From Fragilaria crotonensis (taxonomy: Eukaryota > Bacillariophyta > Fragilariophyceae > Fragilariales > Fragilariaceae), in assembly GCA_022925895.1 (NCBI GenBank), contig JAKSYS010000800.1, positions 1-24,511 of the forward strand: DNA of 24,511 bases. The letters run 5' to 3'. A model generated the notes under the pieces. That model ran no database searches. It worked only from the letters and a program-made list of their open reading frames with translations, and had not been told where the DNA came from. Made by a program: the position numbers and the translations under genes. The first letter of the stretch is position 1. Each line of letters opens with the position of its first letter. Of this stretch, positions 3,673-19,209 are shown piece after piece.

Positions 3673-4631
3673 TTGTTTTAATATAGATGAGCGCATAAGC
3701 GTTTCTGCCAGCTATTTGAGCATAATGCATAATATGTTATCAGGTCGAAGAAGAGTATGGAAGCATTGTCTTAAATCGAGTATATCAGCTTGGTGCCACA
3801 ATCCGAATTCAATTGTACGTACATCACAAGCCATCTTGCGCTGGGTTTTCTTGAATCTTTTCTTGACTCCGACTTCATTTGGTTGTGGGGTAGCACTGCA
3901 TATTGCATATCCATGAACAAATGTCCCTGCCAAGATTTCTTTTTTGCCTTCACCGGATGTCATGTGGAGAGGGTACCAGGTACTTGTACCAGGTATCGTC
4001 ACAACTTGCTATTAGCTATCATACTGTAGTATTGTCAATAGGGACGTGATGGCATCTAAGTAACTTTTACCTCTACTAACACCCTCAACACTGTGTCGTT
4101 TGATACTGTATCATACTGAAGTATTGGATTCTGGACTCTGGACTCTTATATAGTACTACTAGTAGTACTGTAGTACGCGGAGTACAGCACAGGCTACGTG
4201 CACGACGTTACGTATGTTCAAGGTACAAGGTGCGTATGGAAGTACAAGTACACACGTACGTATACCTGGTATGTCATACTCCATACTGGGCGACTGTACG
4301 AGTTGCGTAGAAGTACTACAGTAGTGCATACAGAGTTGGTCTATGTAAAGAGCTCGAACTGGCATAGATATACCAATTATCCGTACCTGGTATCATAGAT
4401 ATACCAATTATGCGTATCATGTATATATTTAGCAATTAGCAATGCTCCAGTATCATCCAGCAGCCTGAGATGGCGCACAGACTGGCACCGAGGCATCGTG
4501 ATCAAAACTTGAAACATACATCTGTCATCGTCGAGCGCAACTCAAGTGAACATTAACTGGTTCAATTGAATTTGCATTGGTTCCGCCGGACCAACTGACA
4601 CGCTGTCACGACAAAGATCATCGCATCAACC
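3673..4631. other. Intergenic region with GTAC-rich sequence
   Basis: No convincing gene. It holds GGTACCAGGTACTTGTACC (3972-3990), scattered GTAC and ACTAGT palindromes at about 4150-4330, and a direct repeat at 4363-4411. The last ~100 bp should contain the promoter and 5' leader of the SGNH-like gene; no clear promoter element was identified. Confidence 0.6.
4363..4411 (+). repeat. 18-bp direct repeat, two copies 31 bp apart
   Basis: The 18-mer CATAGATATACCAATTAT occurs at 4363-4380 and exactly again at 4394-4411. The copies are separated by a GTAC-containing spacer. Confidence 0.9.
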
Positions 4632-7484
4632 ATGGCGCCAATGAATTTCCAGGACGACAACCTGGAAGAGGTTGCAGGTTTGATTCGTGCCGGTGGGACA
4701 TCCGGGGCTGGAGCTAGTCGTTCGTTCTTCAAATCCAGCTATTGCGACGAACTCATTGACAACGCCGTTGGAAGGAGAAACCGTCGCGTGCTTTTGATGA
4801 CCATTGGTTGCCTGGCTGTCTTGCTTGTTGTGATTATGGCCTCGAAGAGCGGTAGTTATGAAATAAGTGGTCCAGTAAGCCAAGGCTCTAGTGGAATTTG
4901 TGGATCCCGATTCACCACTTCAGCTCCTGAAGATACTGAAAGTGATCAAACCGGCCCAAACGAAAGTGGAGAGCAAGTCGTCGTCGTCGATCCGAAGCCT
5001 GAGACTGTCGAGCAACCTACGACTGACCCTCCTGTTCCGCAGCAAATCGTAGTAGCGAAACCAAAACCAAAACCGAAACCAAACAACAAGATTCCTCGTC
5101 TTGAACCAGACAAAGAAGCGGGACCAATAGACGATGCCAAGAGAGATGCACTTTCCGATTTATGGGGAAGCTGGCATTTCTGGGATGGCGAAGAAGACGC
5201 GCGTCCCAAAGAAGATTACCTTTCCAAATACCCAAACCGCGACATTCCTGGTGACGACTTCCCGTCAAATTCTTGGCAAACCGATTCCGTATTTGTAAAT
5301 CACTACCTAAACGATGCAGGCAATCTTATCGATCGAGCCATGGAAAGTATATTTGCGGAATATGGTCACGGGAAGCCGCTTCCCCCTGAAGTAATGGCGT
5401 CACGCATGAAAATGTTTCACTGGGAAAAGATTGATTTGACCACAGAAACGGAGCCACCGCCTGAATTCAGAAAAGAAGGCGCAAGGGATATTGGTGGGTG
5501 GACCACCAAGCGGTCGTTCAAAGGACTGGTCCGGCGCTTGTTGCACGCCATGCTCACCCGCGACACTTTCACAGTCGTGCTTGCTGGCCATTCGGCGGCG
5601 CAAGGGCAGGGCAATCACTTTCGGCAATCGTATGCAATGCAGTTCCATCGGATCATGAAGCCCATATTTGAACGTCTCGGTGTCAAACTGATCACACGCA
5701 ATATGGCACAAGGTGGTTTGGGGACGTTGCAGGGAGGGATGGGAGCTCGTGATATCTATGGATCGGATGTTGATTTGTTTCTCTGGGATTCTGGCATGAC
5801 AGAGGGTAATGCACCGCATCATGTTGACTTGGTCATCCGTCAAGTTCTCATGAGTGGCAATCGTGTGCCTGTCGTGTGGGGGCCTCCCTTCGATCTCCTC
5901 AAGTTGTATCACGAAGAAGCCGACGCCGATGTCGGTGAGTGGGGCACTGGATTTGCTGGTGTGCCAGAGACGACTAGTGAAGAACAGGCCTTGACCCTGC
6001 CCTTCGCAGCTCGCAACATGAAATGTAGCAGTGAGCGCCAGGATCTATGTAAGGAAAATCGCTTCTCATCAACATGTTGGATTAATCGAACCGACGGTAT
6101 TGTTCCCACTCGTGAGCAGCCATCACACCCCCGAGGACAAGTTAAGTGGCACCCAGGATGGCGACCTCATCAACTCATGGGGCGTGTCTTGGCATTTGCC
6201 GTCTTGGAAGGTCTTGAAGTGGCAGTTAATTCTTGGATGGAGAACACCATGACAGGACAACCTCTCGATGATGAATATTGGCATGTGACTGACTATTATG
6301 AAAACATTCGTAACAAGGTTCGTAACATGGATCAGAGCTTTGGGACACTGTCCGGATATCGCCAAGCAGGAAGAGTTGCCTCTACGAATGTGCTTCACTC
6401 CCATTAACGGCAAGACACAGTATACGCCTCGTGCGAACTATGAAGAATCGGCATTGACGAGCATTGTTAGGGCAGCTCCGAGTGGGTATGTGCCAATCAA
6501 CGGCGACAAGCGACCGGCACTGTACGACGGCCCGGATGTTCATAACCCTGCCTATGACATTCCAGAAGGAGAAGTTGACGTTTTGTCGATCGTCATGGGC
6601 CGTCGCCGATTGGATGCTTCCAAGGAGCTGCCAACTTGGTATTCACACAGTGCTTCGCTGAATGCGATGCAACCTTCGAAATCGTCCGAAAGGACATCAA
6701 GGGCAAACATTTCTGACTTGATGCCACGACGTCGTCGCCGCCTTGATGAGGATATAGTTCCTGGTGAGGGATGGGATGTTGCGCTAGAAGTCCAAGGGTA
6801 TTGTGATGGCACGTACGATTCGGTGTGTGCCCATGCACCGGATGAAGAGTGTTTCCTATTGGGCCACCCCGATGGCCGTGGTGCCATCGTGGGGGGGCGA
6901 TCTCTCCGGTTGGCTTGTCATGACATTGAAGGCTCTCAGGCAAGGTATTATCGTTGTCAAGCTGCAAACATGGCATGTTCAGGAAGAAAATCCTCGTGCT
7001 CGCAGTTGGTCAACTGTAGATGGCAAAAGGCGACGCTTGGGAGAGTCGTCGGTATCGGAGCAAGAATCCGTTGACGATCGGGAAGACATGTATTTCATGG
7101 GTGACCTAGCGTATCCAGAGGTGGACGAAGCTATACCCATCAACCCACATCGAAATGTCAAGATGCGAAACTACGATTGTCCCCCATTGCCCGATACCTT
7201 TGCCTTTGATTATGCCATCAATGGGAAGATCACTACGTTAAACAACACAGAGTTCCTTGAACGCAAAAAGAATCTCCAACGAGTGGTTGAAACGCTCACC
7301 CTTTTGGACGACCCAGAGTTCACCAAAGACGAGCAAGACGTTGAAGTGGCCTTTCGATTGCGCGGTGCGGGTCGTCCTATTGTGTTTGGAATATCTCACA
7401 TGTATTGGGCTTAAACACATCGCTCTGACACTTACTAAACCAGCTAGGAATGTTCGTATCAAGGTGGTGAACGTTATACCCTGA
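4632..7484 (+). CDS. Membrane-anchored SGNH/GDSL-hydrolase-like protein
   Basis: Probable type II membrane protein with a lumenal or extracellular esterase-like domain. The ATG at 4632 is in good context (ACCATGG). Residues 53-70 form one transmembrane helix after a basic RRNRR. A linker with a KPKPKPKP tract (143-150) follows, then an SGNH-like core: AGHSAAQGQGNHF (318-330, nucleophile Ser321 in place of GDS), NMAQGGLG (357-364), FLWDSGMTEG (383-392) and a late WHPGWRPH (507-513) that could supply the catalytic His. After residue 570 the frame changes near 6342-6344, again in the G7 run at 6891-6897, and again at 7407-7409; removing one G at each rejoins MDQSFGHCPDIAK, AIVGGDLSGWLV and HMYW-LKHIALT. 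The remainder contains a Cys-rich segment and basic RRRRR clusters, with the stop at 7482-7484. Substrate unknown; the hydrolase call rests on motif spacing. Confidence 0.7.
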
Positions 7485-7631: not shown

Positions 7632-9506
7632 TCACGTGCTCGTGCTTGTGCTTAGCGCTGGTTCGTCCGTATTTGCCAGCCTGGAGTTCCTCAACCTCCA
7701 TTTGTCGTTTTCGTAGATATCAGGCATTTCTTTACAGAACAACTCCAGATCTCTTAACGTCACTTTTCCATCATTATTCACATCGGCAAAAGAGTGCACG
7801 AATGTCGCCCAAGGACATTTCGTTGGCATCCACAGAAAGCCCTAACTTGTCGCCAAGAGCAGCGTGAATCTCTGGGATGCCAATTACTCCGTCGTGATCC
7901 CGATCTAGCAATTCAAGTCGCTCCTCCGACATGCACGTATCATCGCAATCCTCCGTTGGTGACGGCTGAACTGCTTCCCAGATCTTTCGCCACAAATTTC
8001 GGGCAAAGTAGGACATGAGTTCTGCGTAAATGTTAACGTAATTTCCTTTGGGCGGAAGCGCGTCTGGGTGTGCCTTGTAATACTCTGTCAATGTCGGCGA
8101 TTGCCCATTGGTCAAATCCGAGACCTTGGTTGCAACCCGATATAATTTCTCCAGGTCGAGCGGCTTGCCAGAAACATGAGTAACAATTGGAGTAACACCT
8201 CCTGAAACTCTTCCTTTACATCAATGTCGTATTGCATCCAACCAGGTATTGGAGGTCCCGAATGAGTTTCGAAATTGCCTTGCAAGGACCCAGCCAGGCA
8301 TGTCAACGACTCCGACCACTTCATCCGACTTGATTTCCGCTTCTAGAGCCTCCAACGAAAAGAAGGAACCGGAGGGTAATCAGTCCCTCCGCGAATGTTT
8401 CCCATGAGCAGGACGGCATCTATAAGGTGTGTTCGCTGGCGACCACGCCTCACATTTAGGAGGATCGTAGAGACTGCAGATCAATTTCCATGGTAGTGAC
8501 GCTCCGCGAGCATTGACAGAAGAAAGGGCTCAAATGATGATGGAACGCGTGCCAATTCCGTGTTGCGGAGAGGCAGCAGTGCGTCATACGCCTTGGTATT
8601 CTCCTCGTTGAGAATTGCATCTGGTTCCCAGTCAGACGTTTTGACGAATCGCGCTGATATCTTAGGATTTTTACTACTTGCATCGTCCCAACAGATCTCT
8701 AAGACTGTGGCGTAAATGGCATCCAACCCGGGCTTGAGCAATCGTGTCCCCTCGATGGTCTCGTCGACCCGATGATGGTCATGGCCCGACAGAATAACCG
8801 GAAAATCAAACATGCGACAGGTCTTGTGATCGTCGGGAACGTACATATGTTGCAAGGGGATAACAAGGTCGCAGGAGTAGGGTGGTTTCTCCAGAAGGTC
8901 CTTGTATTCCCGCAGAGTCTCCCATGGATCGCGAATGTTGGCCCCTCCGAAGGCACCTGGTTCCTGAAAGTGCTTGTACAGGGCAGGATCGTCTGACAAC
9001 ACTGCAATCAATCCAACCGTGCGAGTCTGAGATCCGTCCGGCGAGGTAACCTTCAAGATTTCGAAAGGTTTCTGATACTCCATCGCTTCATGATCTTGCA
9101 TATTCGTGTTGATGAATGTTCCTGGGAAGTTCTTGACATGCTTGCACACCGTCCGATGGTTAATATCAGCCTCGTGGTTGCCCCACGTCAAGTAGTCGAT
9201 TGGAGTCTTGGCCAAGGCGTTCATCATGCCTGCGCCTCGATCGACACTAGAGAGCAAATAGGGAGCGAGGAAATCGCCAGTGAGCACCGATACGACGGAT
9301 GAAGGAGCGGAGCGCTGTCTGGCGTCGCGCAAAAGAGTCTTGAGTGATGCAAAATGTTCCAAGGTGTAAACGTCGGTCACTTGCACAATTGTCAACTTGG
9401 ACTGCGATTCCAGGGGAGGAGTTGGGATCCAGGTTGAGGTCGAGTGTTCTGAGAGTTTGTCTCCCGAGGAGGGCGCCCTGCCACCACTCGATGCTAAGGA
9501 AGCCAT
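7632..9506 (-). CDS. 5'-nucleotidase-type metallophosphoesterase with C-terminal EF-hands
   Basis: Calcineurin-like phosphoesterase fused to calcium-binding EF-hands. Residues 1-341 are in one frame: TDVY (44-47, at the metal-binding DxH position), LTGDF (75-79), TWGNHE (107-112), PLQH (217-220) and SGHDHH (240-245) are the ordered metal-ligand blocks. The 5'-nucleotidase C-terminal domain follows, but frames change near 8481, 8370, 8285 and 8205: LNVRRG, AVLLMGNIRGGTD, EAEIKSDEVVGVVDMPGW, GPPIPGWMQYDIDV and RVATKVSDLTNG. EF-hand loops are DRDHDGVIGIPE and, after another shift near 7795, DVNNDGKVTLRD. Ca2+ control is inferred. DxH is DxY here, so activity should not be assumed. The exact C terminus is ambiguous because two frames stay open past 7700. 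The gene converges on the SGNH-like gene with 147 bp between stops. Confidence 0.78.
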
Positions 9507-9919
9507 TATAACAAGAAAGGGAAGTGGTCGCTACCATAGCGGTGTGGGACTTGGGTTTGTGTCGCTGATGTGCTCCGCCTTTGTGCTTAAAACTCAACTT
9601 TCTGTCTTAAGCTTGATTCAGCTGTCCAGTTGCCAAAACCTGTTTCAACTTCAGTACCTTCAGTCAGCGGGGACTTCTACGGAACGTCCTATCGACCGAA
9701 GATACGAAAGAACGTCAATAGGGATTCGAGATGCGTACTTATGTTTGACGAACAGTTCGGTGCAGGACGAGATGATGATTTGTGCAGACTTGGATCTCGG
9801 ATGAAGGTTCATGTAGGAGTGTGACATGCGCGTATTCAAATGTGGTGCCATGGAAAACGTCATCGGCGAGACACGTAGGACTGAAAGATTCACGTATGCA
9901 TACGCGGTTTCGGTTACAT
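9507..9919. other. Intergenic region left of the MULE
   Basis: Contains the 5' flank of the metallophosphoesterase gene and then DNA up to the transposon terminus. Short open frames here are shadows or chance. No promoter motif was identified. Confidence 0.5.
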
Positions 9920-9957
9920 ACGGATCCGATTAACTGTCACCTATTTTTCGTCATCGT
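9920..9957 (+). repeat. Left terminal inverted repeat of the MULE (38 bp)
   Basis: Starts ACGGATCCGATTAACTGTCA and ends TTCGTCATCGT. It is the exact reverse complement of 15858-15895. Similarity stops abruptly at both edges. Confidence 0.95.
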
Positions 9958-10211
9958 ACGACACGTTACTTAAGGACCTTGTAGAAAATTTAGCTACAAG
10001 TGGAAGCTGTTCAAGATGGGAATTTTGTTTCCTTTCCTCGACATATTTTCTCAATCAATTCACCACGCCTGCCCTCCCTGCTCTGAATTTGAATTTGAAT
10101 TCATGCACATATTCACGTACATAAATCTGATTTAAAATAAGAATAACTCTCCATTTTTTCACCGTACTGCAGCACCATTCCATTCATTGTTCCCACTCCT
10201 ATTGTATTGAG

Positions 10212-13171
10212 ATGTCTACCGACACCACAACGTTCTTGCAAACAAGCCAAGCCGCGGCAAGCCAAGCCGCGGTGACGAAGTCATTACAGGTGGCTTTGGA
10301 CGGCGCATCCAAGGATCTGAAATACTGGAGAGCGGTTATTCCTTTCCTTATCAGGGCATCCCATGCACCAGGCTCTTTACTAAATGTTCCTTCAGATAGT
10401 CATGAGTGCGAGGACATTCTTGAGTATTTGCAACCTATGTACAAAGGTTACAAGATATACTTCAGTGACAAGTACTCTGCATCCATTTCTAGTGGCGGTG
10501 GCTGGAAGGAGCTTCTGAAGGACCTTGCAATTGCAGGAATGCAAGGTGGATTCTACCTAATTGGAAATGGTAGTTACAAGGACAAACATATTGTTGTGTG
10601 CCGAGGAAGCCGCTTGTATCAAGGTACTAAGAGGCAGCAGCTGAGTCCCAGCCAGAAGCCGCAATACAGGAATGAAACTTTGCACTCTGATCGCAACAAT
10701 TCACGTGGAAATGTTGGGAAACTTCTTCCCCGCAAGACTCGCACTACTCGTGCAATAGAGAAAGGTTCTGTCTGTCCATTTCGAATGAATATTGGACTGG
10801 ATTCTTTGGATACTATCTTGCTGGCGGAACCGGAAATTCTCATCATGCATATCACCCGAAGGTATTGAAAGTTGAGTATGCTGTCCCAACGCGACTTATT
10901 GGTGGAGTTGAAAAGGACATCCTAGTTAGCGTTGGTAGCGCAAAGGCTAATGATGGTGTGGGGAGAAGTATTCATTTCTCTCGATGCGGATACGTGATTC
11001 CTAGAAGTCAGGTTAGATACATTAATGGGTTTCGGGTGGGGCCTGCAACAATGATGGTAATTCTGCACTCCGAGACAGTCCTGATCAGAGTCCAATTGAT
11101 GCTTTTACTTCCTTTCGAACCGAAGGTTTTGATCATTGCGTGCTTTACCATCATCTTCCGCATCAAAACGGGGATGTCACGATGGGGAGGAAATTCCTTC
11201 ATCCATGGATCAAGATAATGCGAATCCAACAATAGGAATAATGGTGAATGAGTCATTTGGTGATGACGGTGATCACAATGTTCAGCCTTCTCCACCAACA
11301 TCCATAAAAGTTGTGCTTCCTGATAGTGAGGATTTGGACATGCAGTTATTTGCGAGAACACATCGACACTCACTGTTGGTGGATGACAAGCAAGACCTCA
11401 TGATTGGTTGTGCTTGGACAACACCGAAAAGCGCCTATTCAAAATGTTCGGTGAGGTGCTCCACATCGATTGTACTGCCGATACAAATTACGAGGACAGA
11501 CCGTTCCTCACAATAACTGGGCGGGACTCGAATGGAAAGATGTTCACTGTTATCCGCGCTTTTCTTCCGAATGAACGTGCCTGGGTTTTTCGCTGGTTAT
11601 TTCAGACAGTAATGCCTTCTTTGCTTGGAAGGGAATTCATTGGAAGAGTAAAGGTCATTGTGACAGACGGCGATTCACAAGAAACATCACAGCTTGATAT
11701 TGCAATTGCACTACACTTTCAAAATGTTTGTCGCGTACGATGTGGCTGGCATGTTGTGGACCGTGGTTGGATTCGCTGTTGTCCTGGCGTCAGATCCGTT
11801 TCGAGAGAAAACCAAGCTGCATTTAAAACAAGCATCATTCAAATCAAGGCGTGGCTTTACAGCTGGATGCACTCGACCTGTGAGTCGGAGGAAGAGTACC
11901 GGATTTCAAACGCCCTTCTTGCTGCATATCTGCGTTCACCTTCGTTTCCACTGCTACAGAGCCTGTGGCAGAGCGCATCCGATTGTTCATCCGTGACAAT
12001 GTGGAGCCTCGAAACTTTCCTCTGCTTTTATCGCCGCGCAACATTCGCCACTACGACACATATACCAACTCCACATGAGGGAACCAACAATGGATTGAAA
12101 GCTGGAGCTGCCCTGTCATGCCGCAGCATTCCCTTGATCGATCTGCATCCATACTTAATCATAACGCACAGATAAAGGTTACATCAAGCTCGATACTATC
12201 CGCGAATGCGGTATCGAGCAAGTCGCTCTGGTCGTCTCTACCAACGTCACAGAGATTAACTCACAAAGGCGAGGGTCTTGTAACACAACAGTGGAATCTA
12301 CGCAACAATTACATTTTCAAAGGGTTGCGGAGGAACACTGGTTGGTGAGTGCTAAACGTGACGAAACAGAGTTACATCCGGACTTGTTCCACGTTTTGCA
12401 CGTGTACGAAAAGTTTCCATTTCGGATGACAGGATTCTTGTCTGCTTGCATGCACTTCGAACGTATTGGTATCCCTGTCGCCATCAGATGCACATCCTGA
12501 GCTCCTTCTAATGACTATTTGGGCATAACCCACCATGATGTATGCGTTACTTGGTGGCAGGAGTTCCTTGCGTATGGGTTCAGTAATGACCCCAAGTGCC
12601 ACAACGTATCATCCTTGTACAAACGATTGCTTTTCAATGACATAAGAGGGCCTTCGATACCAACGGAATTGAACTCCACCTATTCAGCCAACCCTTGCTG
12701 ATACGTCGCTTGCAGTGAAACCCACCAAAGAAACATGCCTTAACTACGATGTGTCAACTATAAATCCTGGCATTGAGGCGCCTAATTTCTCCGATGTTGA
12801 ACCGAACGGACTTTTTTGGTGTGAAGAACCAACTTTGACATCAAATGAAGACAACGATGACTTCATTGGCAATCCTTGCAACACACAGCAAGAAACAACT
12901 TTGTACTCAACAAATGAAGACGAAGATGCTGCGCTTGTGTTCCCAGAACTCGTTCCAACAGTTGTTAGGAAGGAAAGTGTTCCATACAGTGTTCTTGTTC
13001 CCTTGCAAAAGATTGGCATCGATTCTTGAGGGAAACTGCACAGTGGAGGAGCTGCAGCAGTACGAGGCAATGTTATCAAATTGCATTAAGAAAAAGCACG
13101 AAATAATGGCACAGCGTGGGTCTGCCAATGGCAGCATGGTCTCTTCGAGTGTTCGCTCCAACAAAAGCTGA
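10212..13171 (+). CDS. MULE transposase (DDE), frame-interrupted
   Basis: Catalyses transposon excision and integration. From ATG 10212: an Ala/Gln-rich start, an N-terminal region with KGYKIYFSDKYS, then (after a shift near 10800) GYYLAGGTGNSHHAYHPK, typical of the segment before the MULE domain. The DDE core at 11408-12100 shows HIDCTADTN (first Asp at 11468), VIVTDGDSQE (second Asp at 11666), RCGWHVVDRGW (the C..H motif of MULEs) and HEGTNNGLK (likely catalytic Glu at 12077). A SWIM-like zinc finger follows, FERIGIP plus CRHQM after a shift near 12470, then CVTWWQEFLAYGFSNDP and LYKRLLFNDIRGPSIP. Further shifts lie near 11050-11140, 11400, 12112, 12300, 12700 and 13010. The chosen stop is 13169-13171, but a lysine-rich frame (PPAKKLKDAKGKS) stays open to 13317 and may be the true tail. 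As read, the gene is not intact. Confidence 0.88.
10242..10271 (+). repeat. 15-bp tandem duplication in the transposase start
   Basis: The 15-mer AAGCCAAGCCGCGGC/T occurs twice in a row, differing only at its last base, and encodes a repeated Ser-Gln-Ala-Ala stretch near the N terminus. Confidence 0.75.
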
Positions 13172-13469
13172 AAACTCATGGGACAAAGCACATGTCATTT
13201 GGGTAACGTTGACGAACAAAGCCACCAGCAAAGAAGCTGAAGGATGCGAAAGGGAAAAGTATTAGTGATCGGATCAGTGCATCATTCTTCATTCATGGTA
13301 CTGACATTGGTATCTAATACAACTTCCAATTACATTATTGCCAACGTATCAGCATGTTGGTGACGACACAAACAGCATCAGAATGCATACCTAGTAACCA
13401 CCATACTAACATGAACTAACTTATCGCTTCTCCTTTCAATACTCTTAACCGAACTAATCCTTCTTCCTT

Positions 13470-15076
13470 TCACAAATACAAATTCACTTCCTCGTTCTTG
13501 CACGTTCTTTTGTTGTGGCCCTTCTGACCACATTGTCCACATTTGATTTTGGAATCTTCGTCTAATGCACTCGCTTCGGTGACGAATTCTATTCTCTTTT
13601 GGACGCCCAGCCTGTCGTCCACAGACAATTTCCAATTGGATGCATCGCACCGAAGTCCCCCCTCGAATTCCTTGCCTTTCCATCCGGACGTTTATTCGCC
13701 ACCATGGTGTTGTGCAAGTTAATCTTGTCCAATGCCCCACTCAGCGCGGCCTTGGTTGCACAATCAGGGGATGACAGGACGTTCCTGATCAGAATCAACG
13801 TCTTCCGGCTTTTCAGGCGGCACGAGTATGCAAGCTCAACAATGAAGTCCACAACCGGGGTGACGGTTGGGTCCACAACACAGCATGTTGCCGGAATACG
13901 AAAGTGGTGACATCCCTTAGCATAATGCCCACCCCCATCGCGTGCGGCGTTGGATTCCGCGAGGCGTACGTTGAAAATATACGCCCGATCAGCAGGCGAC
14001 CAATCGGAATGGTGGCCATCAAACACGTCGGGAGGCATTGCTGGACCATCAGCATCACTCAGCTGTCTCCCGGAACGGATCAGCCTCGTGGGCAGGAGCC
14101 GACACCTATGTTAAGGGACACCCTCCATGCCGAAATGTTCCCGCCACTGGCATCATGCAAGCACCTCACATACCCTCCATCCCCAAATTTGCCATCCTCA
14201 TCAATCGTAACCAACTCATGTCGGGGATTAAGTGATTTCCGCCTGTCCGGCAGTTATGTCTTGGCGCCTCTCCCTAGCACAATAAAAATGCCCACAGACG
14301 GGATGACGGCAATCACAGTTCGAACTCCCATCCGCCTTGGTGTCGAGACGATGCACATCGCGGCTCCGAACGGGGACCACGGCTCCACCCCTAACGGCGG
14401 AAGCAAGATCGACGGGCGTCAATGCTCGATTCAAGACGACATCCATCAGAATGAATTCTTGCTGAAACGAGCTTACAGAGCCGGATGGACGGAAGACATC
14501 GTCCTCACGAAGGATTCCAATTGCTGTATTTGGAAACGCGGATAGCCACCACCCGATAATCCCAACACCTCTTGCAGCCCATCCGCAATCCACCGAATGG
14601 GAGTGTAGCAAATCGTGGGCTCGACATGTTTCGCACTTTCGGCTTCGTTTTTAACGCATGTCGAGAAGAACTCATCGAAACCCCTCAAGTCCCCGGCAAC
14701 ACTTCAGAAGGACATCCAGCACTTGTAACTGTGAGGGGACGCGTTCCGAACGGACCGAATTTCGGTTTCCTACCCTTCCGACCTCTCCGATGTTTTCCGG
14801 CATGATGATGCGATTGCACAGGGTTAACAGCAGGGACAGGAACGCCAACATTTGCTGCCTGCCCGGAAGCCACAACCCTAGTAGGCGTGCGAGATTAAGA
14901 ATGGAGGAGCGACATGGATTCGTCAGCACCCTCGTGGCCAATACGTCGTTTGCGGCATTCCTCGGGAACAATCCCGCAACAACACCACTTACAACATGAT
15001 CATCGACAGCGCTATCCGTCATCACAAAAGATGAGGCTGCGCTACCGGTTCGCGGAAAACGAACAATCCCTGGCAA
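13470..15076 (-). CDS. Second, convergent MULE gene with CCHC zinc knuckle; function unknown
   Basis: I do not recognise the main body. Reading leftwards, protein-like segments in changing frames are: TDSAVDDHVVSGVVAGLFP and a hydrophobic LLGLWLPGRQQMLAFLSLLL (15076-14672); GFDEFFSTCVKNEAESAKH and RWIADGLQEVLGLSGGG (14688-14540); FRPSGSVSSFQQEFILMDVV (about 14500-14430); DDEDGKFGDGGYVRCLHDASG (near 14190-14130); and FDGHHSDWSPADRAYIFN through KINLHNTMVANKRPDGKARN (14038-13660). The C terminus has GRPKENRIRHRSE and then a zinc knuckle, CGQCGQKGHNKRTC (13500-13541, CX2CX4HX4C), before the stop at 13470-13472. The GRPK...RIR tail plus knuckle resembles the nucleic-acid-binding tails of plant MULE transposases (family knowledge, not checked). 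A competing plus-strand frame of 213 codons covers 13904-14545, so the body assignment is moderate. Confidence 0.5.
13500..13541 (-). other. CCHC zinc-knuckle motif
   Basis: Minus-strand translation gives CGQCGQKGHNKRTC, exact CX2CX4HX4C spacing, flanked by SKIK and KNEE. This motif binds nucleic acid in retroelement Gag proteins and occurs in the tails of MULE transposases. It is the clearest evidence that this part of the element is read on the minus strand. Confidence 0.85.
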
Positions 15077-15535
15077 CCCACTCCGCAGTTGTGGCAGAGC
15101 GTGATCGATCGGGAAAGCAAGCTGTCACGTCCAAGGGTGCTGCCGGTTCACAAAACAGCAATCCCTGACGACCCACTCCACAGTTATGGCAGAGCGTGAT
15201 CGATCAGGAAAGCAAGCTGTCACGTCCAAGGGTGCCGCCGGTTCGTACGAAAAACAAGCAATCCTGACGACCCACTCCACAGTTGTGGCAGAGCGTGATC
15301 GATCGGGAAAGCAAGCTGTCACGTCCAAGGTGCCGCCGGTCTGTACGAAAAACAAGCAATCCCTGACGACCCACTCCACAGTTGCTGGCAGAGCGTGATC
15401 GATCGGGAAAGCAAGCTGTCACGCCCGTGCTGCCGGTTTGTACGAAAACAAGCAACTTGACGACCCACTCCACAGTTGTGGCAGAGCGTGATCGATCGGG
15501 AAAGCAAGCTGTCACGTCCAAGGTGCTACAGGCGG
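15056..15535. repeat. About five tandem copies of a ~97-bp unit, subterminal in the MULE
   Basis: The core GCAGAGCGTGATCGATC recurs at 15094, 15189, 15288, 15388 and 15481 (steps of 95, 99, 100 and 93 bp). Each copy continues with a GGGAAAGCAAGCTGTCACG-type block, a GCCGGTT block and CCCACTCCACAGTT. Copies differ by small indels. A unit near 96-99 bp could encode a 32-33 residue repeat on either strand, but there is no strong reason to call it coding. Its place between the second gene and the right terminus fits a subterminal transposase-binding or promoter array. Confidence 0.92.
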
Positions 15536-15857
15536 CAGATCCTTCAATTGCTTGTACAGAAACGACGAGGAGGGTGCTTGTTTGGTGGGTCACGACAAAG
15601 GATGATCAACAGCAGAAGCAATAACAATGAGGTATCGTAGTGTTTCAGGCAAAATGAAATGAAATGAATGTCAGATCAGCAATGCAAAATCTCACGAAAT
15701 AGATGTATCGATATACAGATATACACATCGTGATACATGTATTGAGTTGGATGGGGAACAATGCCGATTTGGCTGGCGCGCAATGCCGGTTTGAATGTTA
15801 CACATACAAATTTTTTGATTTTTGTTTTCGACGGATGAGCAAGATTCCTATGATGTC
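15536..15857. other. Right internal flank of the MULE
   Basis: Lies between the tandem repeats and the right terminal repeat. No gene is supported. It contains alternating GATATACAGATATACACATC-like sequence near 15710-15730. Confidence 0.5.
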
Positions 15858-15895
15858 ACGATGACGAAAAATAGGTGACAGTTAATCGGATCCGT
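15858..15895 (-). repeat. Right terminal inverted repeat of the MULE (38 bp)
   Basis: Starts ACGATGACGAAAAATAGGTG and ends AATCGGATCCGT. It matches 9920-9957 in inverted orientation without a mismatch. Confidence 0.95.
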
Positions 15896-16739: not shown

Positions 16740-19209
16740 ATGAGTCCTCGAGGTCAAGATGGTTATTCCCAGGTGCCTTCGCCACCCGGTGCTGTAAATA
16801 TATATGCTGAGGCATCACAACTGTTGGATCCTTCTGAAGGCGAAAACAACAACGAAAACTGCAATGACAATAGCCACAGCAACGTGAAAAGGTTCGATGG
16901 GAATCGACATGCAGTAGTTTGCGCCGGCTTCTGTGTCCTTACGCTCGTGGTACTACTGCTGGTAATTCTTACAGATGGCTCGCCATTTCAGTACATCTCT
17001 CATCTGTTTCGCCCTGATTCGTCGACCGGAACAGGAACCTGTGGTTTGAGTTCGGATCTTGATGCCGTCTTGAAGCTCAAACCAAAGTCAACGTGTAAGC
17101 AAAACTGGACTTTTCGACCAATGGAAATACCAATGTCTGACAACATTTGTATCTCTATGATGTTTCGCAGTGGAGGGATTGAAACAAGGAGCGGTCGCAT
17201 CAGACCATCCAGTCTGTTCGGACATTGGAAAATCCATGTTGGAGTTTCATGGAGGCAATGCTGTTGATGCCGCAGTTGCAACCGCTCTTTGTTTGGGAGT
17301 TGCCAATCCAGCATCTAGCGGAATTGGCGGAGGTATGTTCATGGTCATTCATGCCGATCGGAAGCATCATGAGAAGCGATGGAACATGGCTGCTACTGCG
17401 CATGATGTGACTAGTGTAAATGGCTCAAATGCTTCCATCCAGCGACCAGATTTTGTGGATGCTCGAAATGCTAGTTCCCCCGGTTACGCGGATGATGAGA
17501 AGATAGCTGAAGTTATTGACGCCCGCGAAGTGGCCCCGGATGGAGCCTTTCGTGACATGTATTTGCAACCTAATGTTCCTCCCACTGCATCGGTCAAGGG
17601 TGGTCTGGCCGTGGCCGTCTTGGGAGAATTGCGGGGTTTAGAATTGGCGCATGCCAGACATGGATCGCTGGACTGGTCTGTGGTGGTGGAACCCGCGCTT
17701 CGATTGGCACGAGACGGCGTGATTGTTACCAACCATTTGTCAATTGATATTGCAAATCAAAAGAATAACATCGTCAAGTACGGATTGACTGGACTTGGTA
17801 AACTTTTAACTCGAGATGGACTGAGCCAAACAATGCTGAAGGAAGGGGATCTTCTCAAGAACCCAACTCTGGCGAAGACGTTGGAGGCTGTCATGGAGGA
17901 AGGTGCCGATGCAATCTACAAGGGAGAACGAGCCAGGAATCTTGCTGCAGATATACAGGCGGCTGGCGGAATCGTCACAGAAGAAGATCTGAACCGATAT
18001 AAAGCAACCCCAGGTCTCCGCTGATTTCAGAAGCGAGCGGTTTCTATTAGCGTCCCACCACCCAGTTCAGGTGGTGCAACTATCATTGAATTTTGCGTTT
18101 CTTGTCCGGATTTTCTTCGCCCATGGCCTCCTTGGCAGACACGCTGTCGATTCATCGTCTAGTTGAAGGCATGAGACACGCATTTGCTATTCGCATGTCG
18201 CTGAGCGATCCTGACTTCTCAACCAATGTTACGCTGGATGCCACCAAGGACTTAGTAAGCGGCAGCTACATGGAAGAGTTGAGAATTTCCTATCGAGATA
18301 ATGAAACTGCGAACTTGTCTGCTTTTGGCGGTCCTAAGTGGGCTCAACTCAAAGATGGCGAAGGGGCTGTTGACGCAAACGATGCACACGAAGGGGACCG
18401 CTCGCGACGACTACGATATCAGAAAAGGCACCTTTATCGTACTTTTGGGTACTTGGAGGACCACGGAACGACCCACCTATCTGTTGTTGATTCTCAAGGG
18501 AACGCAGTATCTTTGACAAGTACAATCAATACTTATTTTGGATCTGGAATAGTAAGCCAGTCAACTGGGATTGTTTTAAACAATCAAATGGACGGTACGT
18601 GCTTTGTAATCTCTCCCGATACCTCATTCCGAAAAAATCTGATTCGCCTGCCTTCCAATCCCAAAGATTTCGGCACACCTGGACAAATCAATTACTTTGG
18701 GCTGAAACCCTCCGAAGCAAATTTTATTGAGCCACGAAAGAAACCTCTATCATCGATGGCGCCAATGCTGGTTTTCAAGAAGAGCGAAGGCGAAGGGAAT
18801 GTCTCACTTGGAAAGCTGTTTCTGGCAATCGGCGCTAGTGGTGGCCCAAAAATCATCACGTCTGTTGTACAAGTGTTTATCAATCATGCACTGTTAGGTA
18901 TGTCACTCTTTGATGCCATGTCACATCCACGTGTCCATGACCAGTTACTGTACCATGGATCGGATGTCACTTGTTTCGAAAGTGTTGACCTGGACAATGC
19001 CGGCCCGCACATTGAAGTCTCCAACCGCACGAAGAAGCCTTGATCAACAGAGATCACCAGCTGCTCAGCATCGACTATACTGGTGTGGTGCAGGCTGTTT
19101 CAGTGGATTTAGAGACGGCTTCCATGTCGCAGTGTCAGACATTCGCAAGGCTGGTGTTCTGCGGGATACTGAATGTCGAAAGGGTGACGACCTAATTGGT
19201 CGACAGTAA
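16740..19209 (+). CDS. Gamma-glutamyltransferase with N-terminal signal anchor
   Basis: Transfers or hydrolyses the gamma-glutamyl group of glutathione and its conjugates; a type II membrane protein with the enzyme outside the cytosol. From ATG 16740, about 58 residues are polar, residues 59-78 form one hydrophobic anchor, and a 76-bp intron (17095-17170) is removed. The large subunit then has GAVASDHPVCS, GGNAVDAAVATALCLG and SSGIGGGMFM. The small subunit has GTTHLSVVD; the first Thr (18468-18470) is the expected autoprocessing nucleophile. VPPPSSGGAT, SSMAPMLV and IGASGGPKI are further family blocks, and VSDIRKAG is the usual C-terminal signature. Frames change near 18013, 18045, 18080, 19037 and 19125; single-base corrections join TPRSPLISEASG to VPPPSSGG and EIL to RFLSGF. 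The stop is at 19207-19209. Confidence 0.92.
17095..17170 (+). other. Spliceosomal intron in the gamma-glutamyltransferase gene (76 bp)
   Basis: Begins GTAAGC and ends TTTCGCAG, phase 1. Removal joins KST to (L)EGLKQGAVASD, the expected start of the enzyme domain. The unspliced frame runs out of family similarity at the same point. Confidence 0.8.

Follow-up and report, generated by a model that had tools for sequence, protein, structure and literature searches.

The target duplication by which DNA transposons are recognised and classified arises from the polarity of the staggered joining; for Mutator-like elements (MULEs) its length is given as 8–11 bp (Dupeyron et al. 2019, PMC6446971). The stretch analysed here (the window: 24,511 bp, contig JAKSYS010000800.1 of Fragilaria crotonensis) carries a MULE with perfect termini and raises the question of what such an element does to its target when no duplication lies beside it. 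We consider it likely that this is a young, internally deleted and probably non-autonomous MULE copy, whose family, of chimeric origin, swaps 6 bp of target for itself by joining with a reversed stagger. It is in any case a real and recent diatom MULE-type element, and it seems new in its mode of insertion and in its gene make-up.

Ends of the element

A preliminary description of this DNA had placed the element between identical 38-bp inverted termini with outer limits at 9920 and 15895. All 38 of 38 bases are indeed paired (9920–9957 versus 15858–15895), and other copies end within 2 bp of those limits, but genome searches with both ends and a scan of the fetched copies put the family-wide ends at 9922 and 15893. 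Since other copies start with GGATCCGATTAAC, the sequence with which the family terminus begins, the element is 9922–15893 (5972 bp). Judged by these copies, the outer AC/GT of the 38-bp pair is flanking DNA, complementary by chance, and 36 bp belong to the element; a perfect terminal inverted repeat (TIR) of 36 bp is short for the Mutator superfamily. Longer true ends were considered and rejected, as the sequence adjoining the ends shares nothing consistent among copies. In the assembly (62.1 Mb in 881 contigs), a pattern search allowing at most two mismatches found 32 termini, 25 of them exact, and none with the reversed pattern used as a control. The terminal 6-bp word is GGATCC in 28 of the 32 and AGATCC in 4.

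Target sites

For 12 insertions of the main family, the two flanks were joined and used to look for empty sites (40 of 306 candidates scored), and six of the 12 were searched again (40 of 75). Four insertions gave clean empty sites, one was discordant and seven gave nothing usable. For the window insertion, the empty counterpart is contig C52, an apparent second haplotype, which matches the left flank at 98.8% over 4.4 kb and the right flank at 98.3% over 5.4 kb (41 mismatches in total) and holds six bases where the window holds the element (Table 1). The copy on C313 has its empty counterpart on C33, where ACCAGT stands between the flanks, the left flank matching at 98.8% over 3.2 kb and the right in blocks of 92% and 99%. 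The other two lie in multi-copy repeats. At C346, all four aligned repeat copies hold CGACAT, and of 25 comparisons 23 give a net difference of +6 and 2 of +5; at C91, all four aligned copies hold CATCAT, one with a changed flank base, and 9 of 13 comparisons give a net +6, the remainder +3, +7, +8 and +12. At the level of aligned sequence, then, the two apparent haplotype comparisons and the two repeat insertions show an element that replaces 6 bp, with no target duplication. Another reading, in which GGATCC would itself be a 6-bp palindromic duplication of the target, was rejected, since the empty sites hold GACTAT, ACCAGT, CATCAT and CGACAT. A further copy, on C876 at 59.9 kb, lies in a perfect 7-bp array, the phase of which fits a 6-bp loss or a gain of 1 or 8 bp and does not fit a 9-bp gain. 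With nine short sister elements, none of the candidates scored (40 of 107) gave an empty site spanning both flanks, and for four further ones (all 22 candidates scored) only C241 gave partial paralogues, at a repeat edge, which are not decisive. Neither L012, which lacks about 17 bp of its right end, nor L019, which adjoins another repeat, could be used for this comparison.

Target duplications were also sought directly, as flank identity of at least 85% over 8–11 bp. Among 25 insertions of the family and its sister families, two reached this level, namely the C876 copy, uninformative within its 7-bp array, and the sister element L020; none of four added sister sites did (best identity 0.38 at C251, 0.67 at C76 and 0.50 at C119; C471, L088/L089, by eye), giving 2 of 29 insertions with a duplication-like flank overall. 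None of 2000 random flank pairs reached the threshold. The count of 25 excludes C137/L001 (a two-locus junction), C579/L004 (contig end), C311/L012 (truncated end) and the one-ended sister copies L016/L036, L017, L018, L024, L030, L032–L035, L092, L093 and L096–L098; L013 and L014, which have the same two flanks, are counted as separate sites, and at C251 the pairing of L091 with L022 is assumed. As a positive control, a MULE of another lineage on C22 is flanked on both sides by the 9-bp duplication TTTAAAATG, so duplications are visible in this assembly.

That the loss is fixed at 6 bp and the ends are perfect suggests an enzymatic step. The transposase would join the 3' ends of the element to target positions 6 bp apart, with a polarity opposite to the usual one; the 6 bp between the joining points would then become 3' flaps and be trimmed, leaving a deletion in place of a duplication. 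The wider proposition, that a diatom MULE lineage integrates by exact 6-bp replacement and in this way drives a chimeric element carrying the Ulp1 and protein C cargo of another lineage as a possible anti-silencing module, seems to us about as easy to doubt as to credit.

Several observations weigh against 6-bp replacement as a rule. Only four sites show the loss cleanly, and seven of the 12 have no usable empty site among the limited share of candidates scored. At three of the four clean sites (the window, C346 and C91) the end base of the element is identical to one of the six, so that 5 bp is also possible there, and C313 is the only site with an unambiguous 6-bp loss; its right flank, in turn, holds about 1.3 kb absent from C33, between the two right-hand blocks. 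The discordant insertion, C193/L005, was compared with seven diverged paralogues (those listed being 80–88% identical) and fits a net loss closer to 4 bp, which speaks against a strict 6-bp rule, though the copy that was hit may not be among them. The flanks of L020, a 1-kb sister element on C29, match at 8 of 9 bases (ATCAGTACC/ATCAGTTCC), as a 9-bp duplication would; this may be a true duplication, and it weighs against carrying the claim over to every sister family. At the 25 sites flank identity averages 0.47, versus 0.41 for random pairs, and the second copy of the control element, on C165, has no clear duplication. The copy L001 (C137:42754–51778) has the left flank of the C346 locus (97.7% identity over 5.4 kb) on one side and the right flank of the C76 locus on the other, which is recombination between copies or misassembly; some missing duplications may therefore have the same cause, and absence of a duplication is by itself weak evidence, so that the empty sites carry the argument. 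The reversed polarity, finally, is one way to reach this product, and ligation of overhangs would yield the same one. Separately, the flank repeat of L020 is unlike the flanks of its close copies L019 and L021.

Alternative explanations of the missing target bases

The same 6-bp replacement could arise if 6-nt 5' overhangs (GGATCC) were ligated opposite 6-nt target gaps and the mismatches resolved to the element, in loose similarity to the coupling sequences of Tn916. We think this unlikely, even though the number of bases lost does equal the length of the terminal word, because the target word would then be expected sometimes at one end. None was seen, and although a search with at most two mismatches would miss such ends, 14 of the 15 long matches to the right end stop no more than 3 bases short of it, and the other, at C311, is truncated. 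Less probable again is an ordinary MULE that made 9-bp duplications and lost them through recombination of near-identical copies or misassembly. The two-locus junction at C137, the flanks of L020 and the likelihood of some assembly indel error all suit this account; ectopic joining, however, would leave unrelated flanks, whereas the flanks at window/C52 and C313/C33 each match one empty contig over kilobases, minus 6 bp, and the net difference at C346 is 6 bp in nearly all repeat comparisons. Excision leaving 6-bp footprints could have produced the empty sites, which would then not be ancestral targets; this is compatible with C52 and C33 on sequence alone but very improbable, as the same 6 bp in every aligned repeat copy at C346 and at C91 suggest the ancestral state, and footprints would vary.

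A deleted copy of a three-gene element

The copy-length comparison is based on 18 fetched stretches. Four are long copies (L001, 9024 bp; L002, 8551; L003, 8846; L004, 8532, which stops at a contig edge), four measure 4.8–5.0 kb, six measure 3.05–3.67 kb, one of these with its right end truncated, and the remaining four hold a single end or a shorter relative. Alignment of the window copy to L001 runs up to element position 3730 and resumes at 6517, so that 2786 bp are missing; the parts flanking the deletion are 97.9% and 96.5% identical to L001. The deletion takes out almost all of the Ulp1 gene together with the C-terminal portion of protein C; what remains in the window copy is the transposase region and the beginning of protein C. 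By comparison with copies of 8.5–9.0 kb, the window copy is an internal deletion derivative and not, as had been described, a complete element.

Full-length copies carry three genes, for a MULE transposase, an Ulp1 peptidase/DNA-binding protein and an unnamed protein C. The transposase had been described as of the DDE/SWIM type. Its DDE domain is borne out by a clear match to PF10551 in the window (Table 1) and by an uninterrupted 795-codon frame with the same domain in L002 (E 2.5e-10); the SWIM part amounts to a weak match in a later frame of L001 (E 0.0075, 16.2 bits, under the 19.6 cut-off). As had been noted, the reading frames of the window element are broken, its stop-to-stop frames being short. 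The Ulp1-type peptidase (Peptidase_C48, PF02902; E 1.5e-8 in L002, 2.9e-10 in L001) is encoded on the strand opposite to the transposase, and in PDB the protein comes closest to SENP1 (E 0.011). In L002 the Ulp1 frame continues into a region that is 48% identical over 116 amino acids to the N-terminus of the C22 MULE transposase, and after this DNA-binding region comes a CCHC-like motif, recognised by eye. The Ulp1 frame of L001 and L003 is broken in two.

Protein C is encoded on the same strand as the Ulp1 gene, beyond the Ulp1 frame. Searches of Pfam, NCBIfam, PHROGs and PDB returned nothing better than E 0.011 for it; the weak PDB matches (E 0.011–1.2) were regarded as chance, and a search of viral contigs with two peptide patterns gave no confirmed relative. 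A 278-amino-acid fragment matches 139 places in the genome, fragments and the family's own copies included. Residues H557, D559, H620 and K654 are invariant in the relatives that have the C-terminus (5 of 8 aligned rows). One might guess that the H-x-D...H residues resemble the metal triad that 2-oxoglutarate dioxygenases carry in a double-stranded beta-helix, an identity to which the Pfam, NCBIfam, PHROG and PDB searches lent no support. The relatives of protein C form a large family in this genome (L061–L064, L066, L072–L074), with many long open frames and no known domain; at C22 an Ulp1 frame (PF02902) stands beside one of them, and a similar-looking frame at C87 has no Pfam match.

The two-gene, MuDR-type layout proposed earlier does not hold for the full element, which has three genes and in which, in a search made with no mudrB-specific profile, no mudrB-like gene was recognised. 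That the window copy is a two-gene element in its own right, as its intact termini and two coding regions might suggest, is hardly credible: the missing 2.7–2.8 kb are present in longer copies, the cut interrupts protein C and the last part of the Ulp1 reading frame, and its junction is shared by no other copy among the matches listed.

The family has been active recently, as the preliminary description had supposed from the matching termini. Substitutions between long copies amount to 0.12% (L001–L002), 0.18% (L001–L003), 0.20% (L001–L004) and 0.14% (L002–L003) in the four of six pairs compared, and this low divergence, together with the insertion missing from the apparent haplotype C52, indicates that the family was recently active and that the window copy, as far as its sequence tells, is young. 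The window copy differs by 0.59% from L002 and by 0.72% from L001. Among long copies, 1-bp gaps are as frequent as substitutions or more so; assembly indel error and real decay are therefore inseparable here, and the broken frames may be partly assembly error. The window copy is probably non-autonomous. Short copies would move in trans, using the transposase of long copies, a dependence to which their shared termini and interrupted or partly missing transposase point. Separately, the array of about 97-bp tandem repeats near the right end (15057–15536) seems to vary in length among element copies.

Table 1 Features of the element and its insertion site in the window
Feature	Position	Strand	Remarks
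Insertion boundary	9921..15894		In the apparent haplotype C52 (empty), GACTAT separates the bases that match 9921 and 15894; target not duplicated
Whole element	9922..15893	+	5972 bp; internally deleted copy of the 8.5–9.0 kb family
Left TIR	9922..9957	+	9920–9921 are flank
Right TIR	15858..15893	-	15894–15895 are flank
MULE transposase gene region	10212..13358	+	First in-frame ATG at 10212; frames interrupted; right limit inferred against L001
MULE DDE (RNase H-like) domain, PF10551	11387..12172	+	E 3.9e-11
Internal deletion junction against L001	13631..13632		2786 bp; no microhomology
Protein C remnant	13632..15121	-	N-terminal part of the third gene; no known family
Tandem array	15057..15536	+	Five copies of a 93-nt core spaced 93–100 bp; near the right end of the element

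Related MULEs in the same genome

The transposase is 60% identical over 662 amino acids to that of a 5.9-kb MULE found at C76/C137, the termini of which, AAATCCGATTAAATG, are closely related to those of the family; this sister and another MULE at C119 (6.6 kb) have similar termini, and neither site shows a duplication. Against the transposase of the C22 MULE, the family transposase gave no significant match. The Ulp1 domain, in turn, is 42% identical over 139 amino acids to that of the C22 element, which also carries a relative of protein C (41% identity, E 3.4e-16). The C22 and C165 elements thus share with the family a protein C relative, an Ulp1 peptidase and the DNA-binding region of the Ulp1 protein, but differ in having their own TIRs of about 640 bp and their own 549-amino-acid transposase, with a 9-bp duplication at C22 and none clear at C165. 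The C76 element differs in that no Ulp1 or protein C frame was recognised by eye among frames of at least 150 amino acids in the fetched part. Because its termini and transposase resemble those of the sister MULE at C76 and its cargo that of the C22 lineage, the full element looks chimeric. We infer, direction included, that it arose by fusion of the ends and transposase of a sister MULE with the cargo of a lineage able to make 9-bp duplications.

As to these relatives themselves, the C22 MULE (L068/L069, C22:22098–29180) is 7.1 kb long with inverted repeats of about 640 bp and encodes the 549-amino-acid transposase, Ulp1 and the protein C relative; it is 99.1% identical to the C165 copy (L070/L071), the flanks being unlike. 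The transposase of the C76 MULE occupies an uninterrupted 948-codon frame (L082:1771–4614), and the C76 and C137 contigs match at 99%.

Comparison with known transposons

MuDR of maize has long TIRs. It is described as having two open reading frames (PMC6446971); the present family has 36-bp TIRs, and its other genes encode an Ulp1 peptidase and protein C. With the Mutator superfamily at large, the family shares a PF10551 DDE transposase, inverted termini, internal deletion derivatives and perhaps, on a weak match, a SWIM-like zinc finger, but in place of the 8–11 bp duplication given for the superfamily (PMC6446971), 6 bp of target are replaced; its placement there follows from the transposase, the expected duplication being absent. 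Table 1 of the same survey enters the MULE-Diatoms group 37 as "No TSD [target site duplication] and not indicated", with TIRs of 123–124 bp, SWIM and one open reading frame (PMC6446971). That group resembles the family in its stramenopile host, its lack of an indicated duplication and perhaps, given the weak match here, its SWIM transposase, whereas the family has 36-bp TIRs and three genes; the group's entry does not mention target deletion (PMC6446971). Plant MULEs that carry Ulp1 are the Kaonashi (KIU) elements, for which an account is available that reports hypomethylation of related elements (PMC13317346). Like Kaonashi and Vandal of Arabidopsis, the family has an Ulp1-type protein beside a MULE transposase, here in full-length copies only; those elements are non-TIR and have reported anti-silencing activity (PMC13317346). 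Speculatively, and by analogy with Vandal and Kaonashi, the Ulp1/DNA-binding protein and protein C might counter host silencing. In a literature survey made mostly at title level, we found no description of target deletion for a MULE; titles on "target site deletion" concerned retroelements or transposable elements in general.

Harbinger relatives with 0-bp duplications form the Spy group. Such relatives have been described (PMC12730594; PMC4482050), and the Spy group of PHIS transposons resembles the present family as a DDE transposon lacking target duplication; it differs in its transposase family, and its description, in the part relevant here, mentions no target deletion (PMC4482050).

Exact target-site deletion is not a usual outcome for DDE transposases. 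If the reading holds, the fixed 6-bp deletion made by a young, multi-copy family would imply a DDE transposase capable of another joining geometry or processing, and the deletion could explain the entry of diatom MULEs as lacking duplications. MULE lineages within one genome seem to differ in the change they make to the target, which makes this trait directly testable. The chimera would be a case of a MULE gaining the accessory genes of another lineage, including an Ulp1–DNA-binding fusion.

Host genome and neighbourhood of the insertion

The preliminary description had taken the genome for that of a probable diatom. The silicon transporter family (PF03842) has 19 matches in the genome, 18 of them over the cut-off, whereas among 14 control genomes one had a match and none over the cut-off; these transporters identify the host as a diatom. 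Two loci carry tandem silicon-transporter domains, three in one 1456-codon open frame at C97:29749–33762 and two in a 1008-codon frame at C771. Within the window, a calcineurin-like phosphoesterase frame (PF00149) lies on the minus strand at 8481–9527 and starts about 0.4 kb from the insertion, and a gamma-glutamyltranspeptidase gene at 17161–19040 is split across two frames, by an intron or an assembly indel.

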